The notes beneath the pieces were generated by a model. It was not told the origin of the DNA. It made no database searches and worked only from the letters and a program-made list of their open reading frames with translations. A stretch of DNA of 64,000 bases from Sphingorhabdus profundilacus (lineage in GTDB: Bacteria; Pseudomonadota; Alphaproteobacteria; Sphingomonadales; Sphingomonadaceae): the NCBI RefSeq assembly GCF_009769755.1, contig NZ_SDWJ01000002.1:620001-684000 (forward strand), in the 5' to 3' direction. The position numbers and the translations under genes were made by a program. Below are positions 11,768 to 57,825 of this stretch, piece after piece; position 1 is the first letter of the stretch; each line of letters starts with the position of its first letter.

Positions 11768-13171
11768 ATGTTGCCGACGGTAGCCATTATCGGTCGGCCC
11801 AATGTCGGCAAATCGACTTTGTTCAACCGGCTGGTTGGCAAAAAGCTTGCGCTTGTCGATGACACCCCCGGCGTTACCCGCGACCGGCGGGAAGGTCAGG
11901 GCAGGTTGTTCGATCTTGAGTTTACGATTGTCGACACTGCCGGATATGAAGACGAAGATCCGGATACGCTGCCTGGACGGATGCGGATGCAGACAGAAGC
12001 GGCAATTTCCGGTGCACAGGTGGCACTATTTCTAATTGATGGCCGCGTTGGCGTTACTCCACTAGATGAAGAAATTGCGCGATGGCTTCGCAGCAGCGCT
12101 ACCCCGGTCGTGTTGGCGGTCAACAAGGCAGAGGGCAAGCAAGGCGATGACGGCATTTTAGAAAGTTATGCCCTTGGTTTTGGTGATCCTATTGCGATCA
12201 GCGGCGAGCATGGTGAGGGCATGGCGGATCTGTTCCAGGCGTTATTGCCCCATATCGACGGAGGGTCATTTGAAGTTCAGGACCCTGAAGCGCCCGACGC
12301 CATATTGAAACTCGCCATTGTCGGTCGACCCAATGCCGGTAAATCGACGCTAATAAACAAGATATTGGGCGAGAACCGACTGATCACTGGCCCCGAGGCC
12401 GGGATCACACGCGACAGTATTTCCATAGACTGGATATGGACAGATCCTCATCCCAAACAGGGTGAAGCGGACGAGGAAGGGAATATCCCCCCATTGCTAA
12501 CCGACCGACGGGTGCGTCTGATCGATACCGCCGGTATGCGTAAACGCGCCAAAGTGCAGGACAAGCTCGAAAAGCTGTCTGTCGCCGACGCCCGTCACGC
12601 CATTGATTTTGCCGAGGTTGTTGTCTTGTTGCTTGATGCGACCAAGGGCCTTGAAGTCCAGGATTTGAAGATCGCCGATCATGTCATTCAAGAAGGCCGG
12701 GCGCTGATCATTGCGATTAACAAAAGGGATATTGCGGAAAACGGAAGCAGCCTCTTCAACGGTATTCGCGCAGCGCTTGAAGAGGGCCTGTCGCAGTTAA
12801 AGGGCGTGCCGTTGATCGCTGTTTCCGCGGCAACGGGCAAAGGATTGGATGTCATGATCTCCGCCGCTTTTGACGCGCGCGAAGCTTGGAACAAACGCGT
12901 GCCAACGGGAATATTGAATCGCTGGTTCGAAGCGGCGGTCGCTGCAAATCCCCCGCCAGCGCCAGGCGGCAAGCGAATCAAACTGCGCTATATGACGCAA
13001 GCCCGAAATCGGCCCCCGACCTTTGTCATTTTCGGCAATCGAACTGACGAACTTCCCGCCAGCTATGCGCGGTACTTGTTAAACGGCATCCGACGCGATC
13101 TCGACTTTGGCGCTGTACCGGTGCGGATCAATTTCCGATCGTCGAAAAATCCTTTTGCGGAAAATGACTAG
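11768..13171 (+). CDS. der: Ribosome biogenesis GTPase Der (EngA)
   Basis: Der is an essential tandem GTPase for 50S subunit maturation. Both G domains are visible: GRPNVGKST at residues 9-17, with DTAGYEDED as G3 and NKAEG as G4, and a second GRPNAGKST near 186-194 with DTAGMRKRAK and NKRD. The C-terminal KH-like domain ends with the family-typical RINFRSSKNPF. At 467 residues it is normal. AGGAGTAACGGC precedes the ATG. The TAG stop forms the beginning of the 13169-13213 hairpin repeat. Confidence 0.97.
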   Translation: MLPTVAIIGRPNVGKSTLFNRLVGKKLALVDDTPGVTRDRREGQGRLFDLEFTIVDTAGYEDEDPDTLPGRMRMQTEAAISGAQVALFLIDGRVGVTPLDEEIARWLRSSATPVVLAVNKAEGKQGDDGILESYALGFGDPIAISGEHGEGMADLFQALLPHIDGGSFEVQDPEAPDAILKLAIVGRPNAGKSTLINKILGENRLITGPEAGITRDSISIDWIWTDPHPKQGEADEEGNIPPLLTDRRVRLIDTAGMRKRAKVQDKLEKLSVADARHAIDFAEVVVLLLDATKGLEVQDLKIADHVIQEGRALIIAINKRDIAENGSSLFNGIRAALEEGLSQLKGVPLIAVSAATGKGLDVMISAAFDAREAWNKRVPTGILNRWFEAAVAANPPPAPGGKRIKLRYMTQARNRPPTFVIFGNRTDELPASYARYLLNGIRRDLDFGAVPVRINFRSSKNPFAEND

Positions 13172-13213
13172 GATGGGGACCTAGGATGAGAAACTCGAAT
13201 GGTCCCCATCCTA
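13169..13213. repeat. Hairpin of two inverted TAGGATGGGGACC motifs
   Basis: TAGGATGGGGACC at 13169-13181 is repeated as its exact complement at 13201-13213, giving a 13-base-pair stem with a 19-base loop. The first three bases are the stop codon of der. There is no T-run, so it is not a standard intrinsic terminator. The arm sequence recurs at other gene ends in the window (for example 47131 and 57810). Confidence 0.8.
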
Positions 13214-30555: not shown

Positions 30556-31631
30556 CTGAACTTACCCCCATTGACGCACAGACCGCATTTTCCGGCACCG
30601 TAGCCCCGACCGGCGCGGATAGGTTGGACGAGGTTAAACTTGCCGAATGGATGTCGGCCAATGTTGCCGGTTTTGAAGGACCGGTGGAAGCATTGAAATT
30701 TGCCGGCGGTCAGTCAAATCCGACTTACAGGCTGAATGCCACAAGCGGCTCTTATGTGCTCCGGCGTAAGCCCTTGGGCGTTTTGTTACCCAGCGCGCAT
30801 GCGGTGGACCGGGAATTTAAGGTCATTGCCGGATTGCATCCAACGGGATTTCCGGTGGCAAAGCCTTATGGCTTGTGCACCGATGAAAGCGTGATCGGTA
30901 CCATGTTCTACATCATGGATATGGTCGAAGGCCGCACCATCTGGGACGGCGCGATGCCCGGGTCGAACCCTGCCGAACGCAAGGCAACTTACGAGGCTAT
31001 GATCGACACGTTGGCGGGGTTGCATAATGTCGACGTCGAGGCCGCAGGCTTGTCCGATTTCGGCAAGCCCGGCAATTATTTTGGCCGACAGGTCGAACGC
31101 TGGACGAAACAATATCGCCTCGCCGAAACCGAAGTGATGCCGGAAATGGAGCGATTGATCGAATGGCTGCCCAAGACCCTGCCTGAACAGACGCGAACCA
31201 GCGTCGTGCATGGCGACTATCGTATCGACAATATGATTTTCGACGCCAAGGAACCTGTCGTCCGGGCTGTGCTCGATTGGGAATTGTCGACTTTGGGCGA
31301 CCCCCTTGCCGACTTCACCTATGTCGCCATGGCATGGGTCACGCAGAACGAAGGGCGGTCGGGTGTTATGGATCTGGATCGCACCGCGCTCGGCATTCCG
31401 GAACTCGACGCGATGGTCGAACGCTATTGCGCCGCCACGGGCCGCGATGGTGTGCCCGATATGAACTGGTATTTCGCCTATAATTTCTTCCGGCTTGCCG
31501 GGATTATCCAAGGCATCAAAAAGCGGGTAATCGACGGCACCGCCAGCTCGTCCCACGCACAGACGATGGCAGAACGTGTGTTCCCGCTGGCAGAATCTGC
31601 GTGGAGGTTTGCGGAGAAAGCCGGCGCTTAG
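30552..31631 (+). CDS. APH-fold kinase, ACAD10/11 kinase-domain type
   Basis: The 359-residue protein is an aminoglycoside-phosphotransferase-fold kinase. The nucleotide loop reads FAGGQSNPTYRL, followed by VLRRKPLG with the conserved Lys. The catalytic loop is VVHGDYRIDNMIF (HGDxxxxN) and the metal-binding Asp lies in VLDWELSTLGDP. These are the versions found in the N-terminal kinase domain of ACAD10/11 and in LvaA of the Pseudomonas levulinate pathway, which phosphorylate 4-hydroxyacyl-CoA. Antibiotic modification is therefore unlikely. The TAG stop sits in a TAGGGTCAGGACCTAG motif. Confidence 0.9.
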   Translation: MTELTPIDAQTAFSGTVAPTGADRLDEVKLAEWMSANVAGFEGPVEALKFAGGQSNPTYRLNATSGSYVLRRKPLGVLLPSAHAVDREFKVIAGLHPTGFPVAKPYGLCTDESVIGTMFYIMDMVEGRTIWDGAMPGSNPAERKATYEAMIDTLAGLHNVDVEAAGLSDFGKPGNYFGRQVERWTKQYRLAETEVMPEMERLIEWLPKTLPEQTRTSVVHGDYRIDNMIFDAKEPVVRAVLDWELSTLGDPLADFTYVAMAWVTQNEGRSGVMDLDRTALGIPELDAMVERYCAATGRDGVPDMNWYFAYNFFRLAGIIQGIKKRVIDGTASSSHAQTMAERVFPLAESAWRFAEKAGA

Positions 31632-31644
31632 GGTCAGGACCTAG
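31628..31644. repeat. TTAGGGTCAGGACCTAG motif
   Basis: This motif begins at the kinase gene's stop codon and matches the terminal sequence (GGGTCAGGACC) of the large repeats at 41841 and 57520. It stands alone here without any inverted partner nearby. Confidence 0.65.
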
Positions 31645-40749: not shown

Positions 40750-41841
40750 ATGCGAACCGACGATGACAGCCTGTTGCAATCACTTTACGAGGGGATGTTC
40801 GAAGCGCCCCTATGGGATGGATTTCTTAACAAGTTACTTGCCAAAACCGGCTCCGATGCGGTGAAATTGCTCTTTCAGCCTTCCGATGAGGAACGCATCA
40901 TCGAACTGTCGGCGGGAAACGCCGTGGTGCTTGAAGAAAGAATGCTACCGGAGGGTGGCCGGCGAATCGGGGACGCAATTGCGTTCCGGTCCATGCGTCC
41001 CAACCGCGTCTATGCACAAGAGGAGTTGCTGGACCTTGCCGAAGCAAAGCGTCCCGATATCCCTTCACTCACCGGCAGTTCAGCACCTCTCAAACAGCTG
41101 CGCGCGGTCCGGGTGACTGAGACTGGCGGACTTGACCTATGGCTCCTATGTTCGGGCGGGAAAAACATTGGTTCGGCCACCAGCGCATTGCTGGCTGCCC
41201 TTGCCCCGCATCTGCAGATTGCCTTGCGGAGCCATGCGGCGCTTGAACGCGAACGATTCCGCTCTTCAATAACGGGGCAGGCTTTTGACCGGCTGAAAAT
41301 GGGATGGTTGTCGCTGGATACCGGATGCCATATCATTGATGCGACCGACAATCTGGATCAACTGTTTCAATGGGGCAGCGTTCTGCGCCGCGGCCGCTAT
41401 GATCGGCTGGTTCCCGCATCTCCCTCTATAGACCGCGCTTTGACCTCGCTGGTGAAAAGCTTCGCCGCCAACAGCGATGCGCGGCCACAGGCTTTTAACC
41501 TTAGCAAGGACCCTTGGGTCGAAATGCTGGTCACCCCCCATCAAAGCCAGAATTTTGCAGGCAGCCGGACGCCCGTTGCCATTGTCTATATCAGTGGCGA
41601 CCGCCGCTCACAGGCTGACCGGTGCGACCAGCTGGTCGACCTTTTCGGACTTTTACCCAGCGAAGCGCGGCTGGCGTGGATGCTGGCCCAAGCGACCAGC
41701 ATATCGGAGGCAGCCGATGCTTTGGGACTGACCGTGGAGACCGCACGCAACTATTCCAAGAAAATATATGCCAAGACCGGTGCTCGGGGCCATGCGGAAT
41801 TGGTGCGGATCATTCTGACCAGTGTTCTGGCGATCAGCTAG
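40750..41841 (+). CDS. LuxR-family HTH regulator
   Basis: The 363-residue protein has no recognisable sensor name in its first 290 residues, which resemble a PAS/GAF-like region with central helices. The C-terminal 65 residues are a LuxR-type helix-turn-helix: LLPSEARLAWMLAQATSISEAADALGLTVETARNYSKKIYAKTGARGHAELV, with TVETARNYSKKIYAKTG as recognition helix and dimer helix (positions about 325-345). It is divergent from cysDNCQ and could regulate it. The ATG at 40729 is an alternative start. The TAG stop opens the large repeat. Confidence 0.82.
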   Translation: MRTDDDSLLQSLYEGMFEAPLWDGFLNKLLAKTGSDAVKLLFQPSDEERIIELSAGNAVVLEERMLPEGGRRIGDAIAFRSMRPNRVYAQEELLDLAEAKRPDIPSLTGSSAPLKQLRAVRVTETGGLDLWLLCSGGKNIGSATSALLAALAPHLQIALRSHAALERERFRSSITGQAFDRLKMGWLSLDTGCHIIDATDNLDQLFQWGSVLRRGRYDRLVPASPSIDRALTSLVKSFAANSDARPQAFNLSKDPWVEMLVTPHQSQNFAGSRTPVAIVYISGDRRSQADRCDQLVDLFGLLPSEARLAWMLAQATSISEAADALGLTVETARNYSKKIYAKTGARGHAELVRIILTSVLAIS

Positions 41842-42103
41842 GGTCAGGACCACTTAAAACCACTTGCGAGGCGTCAAAATGGCGAAGAGATCGGGCCAAA
41901 ATGCGCGCCGTCAGGCAGTTACTCTGCCTGCAAGCGTATTTTGGTTCGAGATCGAAGCCATTTTGACGTCTGAAGGATTTGACCCATTTTGCCCATCGCT
42001 GCGTCAGAAAGCCTTGAGATATATCTATATCCCTGCGGCTTCCTTCCTTGCCCTGTGCAAAATGGCCTCAAACCTCGCAAGTGCATTTAAGTGGTCCTGA
42101 CCC
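41841..42103. repeat. Large nested palindromic element, copy 1
   Basis: The outer arms 41841-41858 and 42086-42103 are an exact 18-base inverted repeat beginning GGGTCAGGACCACTTAAA. A second arm pair, CACTTGCGAGG (41861-41871) and CCTCGCAAGTG (42073-42083), continues the stem after a two-base mismatch. Inside, a core at about 41871-41996 contains its own hairpin (CGTCAAAATGGC at 41872 with GCCATTTTGACG at 41957, CCAAAAT with ATTTTGG, and CAGGCAG with CTGCCTG at the tip). The core is nearly identical to 57644-57770. The remaining 41997-42072 has another pair, CCATTTTGC and GCAAAATGG. No protein is encoded. Confidence 0.85.
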
Positions 42104-42116
42104 TAGGTCAGGACCC
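42104..42116. repeat. Solo TAGGTCAGGACCC motif beside large element
   Basis: This motif directly abuts the right end of the 41841-42103 element and repeats its terminal sequence in direct orientation relative to the left end, like a target duplication or a second end. Confidence 0.5.
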
Positions 42117-42165
42117 TCATTGCCGCAATTACGATTTTGCTTGTGACTCGCGAAAAACGATATAA

Positions 42166-47130: not shown

Positions 47131-47147
47131 TTAGGATGGGGACCTAA
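47131..47147. repeat. TTAGGATGGGGACCTAA motif at PAP2 stop
   Basis: The motif lies between the isoaspartyl peptidase and PAP2 genes and includes the PAP2 stop codon (complement of CTA at 47144-47146). It is identical over TAGGATGGGGACCTA to the sequence after der at 13169. Confidence 0.7.
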
Positions 47148-57519: not shown

Positions 57520-57825
57520 GGGTCAGGACCTGTTAAATGCACTTGCGAGGTTTGGGCGGCGCTTCCCCCCGGCAGCGCCGCCCTAGGCGAGGACTTTCTG
57601 CAGACTCTCTCTAGGCCGTGAACTCATAAATATCGTCGTCGAGGCGTCAAAATGGCGAAGATATCGGGCCAAAATGCGCGCCGTCAGGCAGTTATTCTGC
57701 CTGCAAGCGTATTTTGGTTCGATATCTTCGCCATTTTGACGTCCGAAGGATTTGACCCATTTTGCCCATGGCCGCAAACCTCGACGACGATATTTATGAG
57801 TTCACGGCGTAGGATGAGGACCTAA
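57520..57825. repeat. Large nested palindromic element, copy 2
   Basis: The left end, GGGTCAGGACCTGTTAAATG at 57520 and the CACTTGCGAGGTTTG after it, matches the reverse complement of the right end of copy 1. Then come a ten-pair GC hairpin (GGGCGGCGCT at 57554, AGCGCCGCCC at 57574) and a perfect 29-base inverted repeat with arms at 57616-57644 and 57779-57807. Between those arms sits the conserved core 57644-57770, whose own stem (57645-57665 with 57721-57741) is 21 perfect pairs. The right side ends in TAGGATGAGGACCTAA at 57810-57825. No protein is encoded. Confidence 0.85.
57810..57825. repeat. TAGGATGAGGACCTAA motif
   Basis: This copy of the short motif forms the right edge of the 57520 element and lies five bases beyond the ompW stop codon. 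It matches the motif at 47131 at all but one position in the TAGGATGGGGACCTAA core. Confidence 0.65.

Follow-up and report, generated by a model that had tools for sequence, protein, structure and literature searches.

Two palindromic elements in the 64,000-nucleotide stretch of the Sphingorhabdus profundilacus genome analyzed here (the window) are two copies of one family of non-autonomous transposons (MITEs). Members of the family are short and of fixed length and lack a transposase gene. They have terminal inverted repeats, a target-site duplication, empty sites in relatives, and ends shared with an autonomous insertion sequence. The account that we consider likely is that the family is mobilized in trans by an IS5-family transposase, that its arms and interiors reassort, that the two arms of a copy change together by template switching and selection, and that hairpin 1 is probably kept as RNA.

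Two copies of one family

The two copies and the parts assigned to them are as follows, with positions numbered from the first letter of the window.

41839-41840: TA target duplication left of copy 1, based on the empty sites in G018, G031, and G021 and on the YTAR statistics
41841-42103, + strand: copy 1, a full-length MITE of 263 bp
41841-41871, + strand: left arm of copy 1, A type; its tip, GGGTCAGGACC, is an IS5-family end
41872-41968 (approximate), + strand: hairpin 1 of copy 1, the first part of the originally predicted core, with a conserved purine internal loop and a G.T-rich distal stem
41977-42072 (approximate), + strand: hairpin 2 of copy 1, the conserved second half, most of which is missing in copy 2
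42073-42103, + strand: right arm of copy 1, the complement of the left arm
42104-42105: TA target duplication right of copy 1
42106-42118, + strand: 13 additional bases, GGTCAGGACCCTC, similar to an arm tip and not present in the empty sites of relatives
57520-57550, + strand: solitary A-type arm beside copy 2, the remnant of another copy
57614-57809, + strand: copy 2, a MITE with B-type arms and ~67 bp deleted in hairpin 2
57614-57644, + strand: left arm of copy 2, B type; its tip, GGCCGTGAACTCATAAAT, is shared with the ends of other IS5-family elements
57645-57741, + strand: hairpin 1 of copy 2, its base made a perfect palindrome by four changes in 8 bases
57779-57809, + strand: right arm of copy 2

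The original prediction described two palindromic elements with a nearly identical core and different arms, and both features are real. The cores are 94% identical (7 differences in 126 bases), and the arm sequences of the two copies are unrelated. Each pair of arms is closely complementary over 34 nt, at 94% in copy 1 (41838-41871 and 42073-42106) and 97% in copy 2 (57611-57644 and 57779-57812). The proposed strong structure also stands. The fold of copy 1 has an energy of -84.7 kcal/mol, compared with a mean of -36.1 kcal/mol for dinucleotide shuffles (z of -13.1), and the arm motif was matched three times in the window versus zero expected. Chance is excluded as the origin of the two palindromes by these shuffled folds and motif counts. 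The similarity of the cores held, but the shared part does not end where the core was drawn. Another copy in this genome, L002, has the arm type of copy 2 and matches copy 1 at 98% identity along 211 bp, up to the arms; copy 2 is without ~67 bp of that stretch.

This 2.9-Mb genome contains ~18 complete or partial copies of the core. Within the genus (Sphingorhabdus), 24 of 37 genomes, counting this one, carried the full element, as did 0 of 24 genomes from other families of the order. A 21-base interior pattern was present in many Sphingopyxis and Sphingorhabdus genomes and in a few other sphingomonads, with two isolated pattern matches outside the order. Copies on plasmids of Sphingopyxis alaskensis, Sphingobium, and Novosphingobium were of the same length and 70 to 75% identical. 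We assembled 144 distinct full copies, 128 of which were 267 to 268 bp long including both TA dinucleotides, with ~263 bp between them. The original prediction had suggested a non-autonomous mobile family, to be given up for a simple duplication if the core lay at two loci only, with collinear flanks. The many copies, the TA duplication, and the empty sites in relatives bear out the mobile family.

Fold, covariation, and exchange of arms

The consensus fold is a three-way junction that is closed by the arms and filled by hairpins 1 and 2. Among 76 sequences, 97.2% of cells were paired, and 58 of 95 pairs had changed on both sides. Such both-sided changes occupied 562 cells; shuffles gave 145 ± 9, and slid controls no more than 97. 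The arm helix showed them in 26 of its 32 pairs. Pairs of copies differed on average at 10.1 of 32 arm positions, whereas only 1.5 of 32 pairs were mismatched within a copy. The interior tree yielded 470 both-sided arm events, a count that is inflated by reassortment of arms and interiors. Mismatches in the arms were rare and symmetric (55 G.T and 58 A.C), a pattern indicative of a process at the DNA level that maintains the perfect palindrome.

Template switching is known to leave paired multi-base changes, corrections to a perfect stem, and loop inversions (PMC8794818, PNAS 2022). At six orthologous locus pairs, the arms had accumulated 11 paired and 14 single changes, and 5 of the 11 paired changes were transversions; a hand estimate from flank identity gave ~1 paired and ~43 single changes as the expectation. 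The four changes at the base of hairpin 1 in copy 2 made that stem perfectly self-complementary. In two further copies (L010 and L015), hairpin 1 was inverted in place, matching the strand opposite to the rest of the element. Both arms of a copy likely change together through template switching between them during replication, combined with selection for a foldable unit. Selection for the stem would favor the same patterns, and these data do not separate template switching from strong selection.

It is worth weighing whether selection alone, acting on transposition or on a DNA or RNA hairpin through two-step compensatory mutation, could maintain the complementarity of the arms. We judge this somewhat unlikely. 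The 14 single changes fall well below the hand-estimated ~43 from flank divergence, as they would under purifying selection. However, paired changes are too many for a two-step route (11 versus ~1 by the hand estimate, with 5 transversions), and the arm intermediates have no wobble preference. The one-sided correction of four bases in copy 2 and the hairpins inverted in place likewise fit poorly with selection alone.

Arm type was nearly independent of the interior tree, which was built on short sequences that recombine: 12 changes were required, compared with a mean of 14.6 and a minimum of 12 after shuffling. In this genome, copies with A arms and copies with B arms had interiors up to 98% identical. 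Together, these two results indicate that interiors and arm pairs reassort, probably via gene conversion of the interior, with homology ending at the arms. The nested look of the two window copies would then have two sources, namely, one conserved interior shared by copies whose arms are of two IS5 types and the joint change of both arms within each copy.

Hairpin 1 behaves differently from the arms. Its distal part contained 258 G.T and 8 A.C mismatches (110:7 and 148:1 in the two halves of the data), corresponding to 67 and 9 inferred events, respectively. Hairpin 2 varied little and had no G.T excess (16 versus 34). Since mutation is strand symmetric to first order, the G.T excess in distal hairpin 1 suggests that the + strand is selected in single-stranded form, with RNA as the simplest candidate. 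Unpaired purines in hairpin 1 (GAA or AAA facing GAA, and an A.G mismatch) were kept in nearly all copies. From the G.T and A.C counts, hairpin 1 is probably maintained as a + strand RNA structure.

These patterns could also mean that the element is a domesticated structured RNA, whose + strand hairpin 1 transcript serves the host and whose mobility is secondary, a reading that we regard as unlikely. The G.T excess in both halves of the data, the conserved GAA/GAA-type purine loop with its A.G mismatch, and the persistence of orthologous copies between species with diverged flanks are all compatible with a host function. On the other hand, no Rfam family was matched at the gathering score, a result that also led us to reject a known structured RNA. 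Presence at given loci (those of L009, L014, and copy 1) is patchy among relatives. Where the element lies between tandem genes, its + strand is more often antisense than sense to them (38 versus 16 among the 144 copies), a bias that sits awkwardly with a simple read-through RNA.

Insertion sites and IS5-family ends

A TA dinucleotide bordered the element at each end in 88 of 144 copies. A pyrimidine preceded the TA-flanked unit in 94 of 104 cases, and a purine followed it in 106 of 108, giving the target YTAR. The target of IS5 is likewise YTAR (PMC10359306). At the locus of L009, a copy with B-type arms, the 23 relatives that could be read have an uninterrupted TAATG, and this genome has TTA[element]TAATG. 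The locus of L014, also with B arms, was empty in G031, G018, and G021. The same three genomes were empty at the copy 1 locus (A arms), where this genome has 13 extra bases beside the element.

The empty sites contain neither arms nor core; thus, the arms were inserted along with the core, as a whole unit, at an ordinary YTAR site. This result removes the mechanism of the original prediction, in which the core, as an element in its own right, entered the tip of an unrelated palindrome or otherwise targeted hairpins. One core in two different arm contexts is what such insertion would produce, but the palindrome is absent from empty sites of both arm types, the length of the arms is fixed, and the IS5 tips adjoin the TA. 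We consider insertion into preexisting palindromes highly improbable. A single copy, L098 (G034:C22), is centered in an 8-bp inverted repeat (gcaaatgc-CTAG...CTAG-gcatttgc) and is the sole case resembling insertion at the center of a palindrome.

A mobile small coding sequence is equally improbable and was rejected: a 73-codon frame is open through the interior of copy 1 and in several copies of this genome, with its end either just within the right arm or past it, but early stops break it in most relatives while the structure is kept.

Many insertions coincide with stop codons. For genes pointing into a copy, the stop codon lay exactly at the boundary in 60 of ~119 cases, by approximate gene calls based on codon usage. 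In these cases, the target TA and the initial G of the element form TAG, as in the gene upstream of copy 1, whose TAG stop consists of the left target TA and the first G of the element. The empty site of L009 has TAA at the stop position. With G as the first base of the element, a TAA stop that receives it becomes TAG, and a TAG stop remains TAG. The positions are observed directly, and the bias may reflect survival rather than targeting: insertions into TAA or TAG would survive since the gene keeps its stop. A composite scheme can be drawn in which a strand-specific structured RNA sits in a self-correcting DNA palindrome, template switching maintains arm complementarity and permits a change between the transposase specificities of A and B ends at no cost to the fold, and the element spreads harmlessly via stop codons. 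In this full form, the scheme is speculative and rather improbable.

The search for a transposase with matching ends, as the original prediction had proposed, succeeded in other genomes, where IS5-family elements carry the same tips; none was detected in this genome. In Agrobacterium, Rhizorhabdus, and members of the same genus, IS5-family elements 834 to 872 bp long end in the A-type tip and are flanked by a TA duplication (A tips on L126, L129, L131, and L137). A transposase of this group matched NF033580 (278.6 bits) and DDE Pfam domains and sits between ends with the same tips. Other IS5-family elements, from Mesorhizobium and Novosphingobium (L161 and L163), end in the B-type tip, with a close match at one end only. 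Only the outer 11 to 20 bp are common to the insertion sequence ends and the MITE arms. To judge from these shared tips, an IS5-family transposase encoded elsewhere would cut at the tips and insert the unit. With no detectable partner here, the element looks stranded in this genome.

Two other candidate partners were rejected. For an IS630/mariner element, DDE_3 (PF13358) is absent from this genome, and the ends of the MITE match IS5-family elements. An IS5 gene located beside the Sphingobium copy L122 lacks matching ends and probably has no connection with it.

Related systems and small palindromes

Correia elements, RUP, and ERIC are likewise short, non-coding, and hairpin forming, with terminal inverted repeats, TA duplication, and many intergenic copies (reviews PMC10969869 and PMC2229807). 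Unlike these, the present element is a ~263-bp three-way junction with two IS5 arm types on one interior, strongly covarying arms, stop-codon insertion, and a strand-specific G.T signature in one hairpin. REP/BIME sequences have a single REP hairpin, a Y1 transposase (RAYT), and no target duplication, in contrast to the TA duplication and IS5 ends seen here. Arm tips and the YTAR/TA target are common to the element and to IS5-family insertion sequences of the orfA/orfB type, which we take to be IS427-like. Unlike them, the element has no transposase gene, an unrelated interior, and arms longer than the shared tips. Template-switched hairpins (PMC8794818) resemble it in their multi-base compensatory changes, perfect-stem corrections, and hairpin-loop inversions; those cases concern short stems in RNA genes, whereas here a 32-bp stem lies in a multi-copy mobile element. 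In open-access papers, we found no sphingomonad MITE and only one, unrelated, paper containing the tip sequence; a review of prokaryotic MITEs names none from sphingomonads.

With at least 144 full copies, the family provides a naturally occurring data set on a 32-bp stem in which about one-third of positions differ between copies and pairing is kept. This data set makes two-step selection and one-step template switching in long stems directly testable in bacteria. It also presents one interior carried by the terminal repeats of two IS5 types. Insertion at stop codons leaves genes intact, which helps explain the persistence of such elements, and knowledge of the family would improve sphingomonad genome annotation.

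Units of 15 bp that stand alone, TAGGGTCAGGACCTA (or TAGGATGGGGACCTA and similar sequences), consist of an 11-bp arm tip bracketed by TA. Four lie in the window (13169-13183, 31629-31643, 47132-47146, and 57810-57824), and ~20 more places were found in the genome. The pattern of the unit gave 23 matches, 3 of which are the starts of arms of full copies, versus 0 for the reversed pattern. Where the junctions were readable, relatives lacked the units, e.g., CTTAAGC versus CTTAGGATCAGGACCTAAGC, again in stop codons. These units may be excision scars or minimal insertions. The segment at 13169-13213 of the window is a very small palindrome, TAGGATGGGGACC...GGTCCCCATCCTA, whose tip is of a third type, one that also forms the arms of the full copy L008. 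At the end of one gene, this genome has a solo tip (L320), whereas of two relatives (L354 in G018 and L353 in G003) one has a 16-bp palindrome, TAGGGTCAGGACCCTA, and the other a partial MITE; insertions have recurred at this one stop codon.
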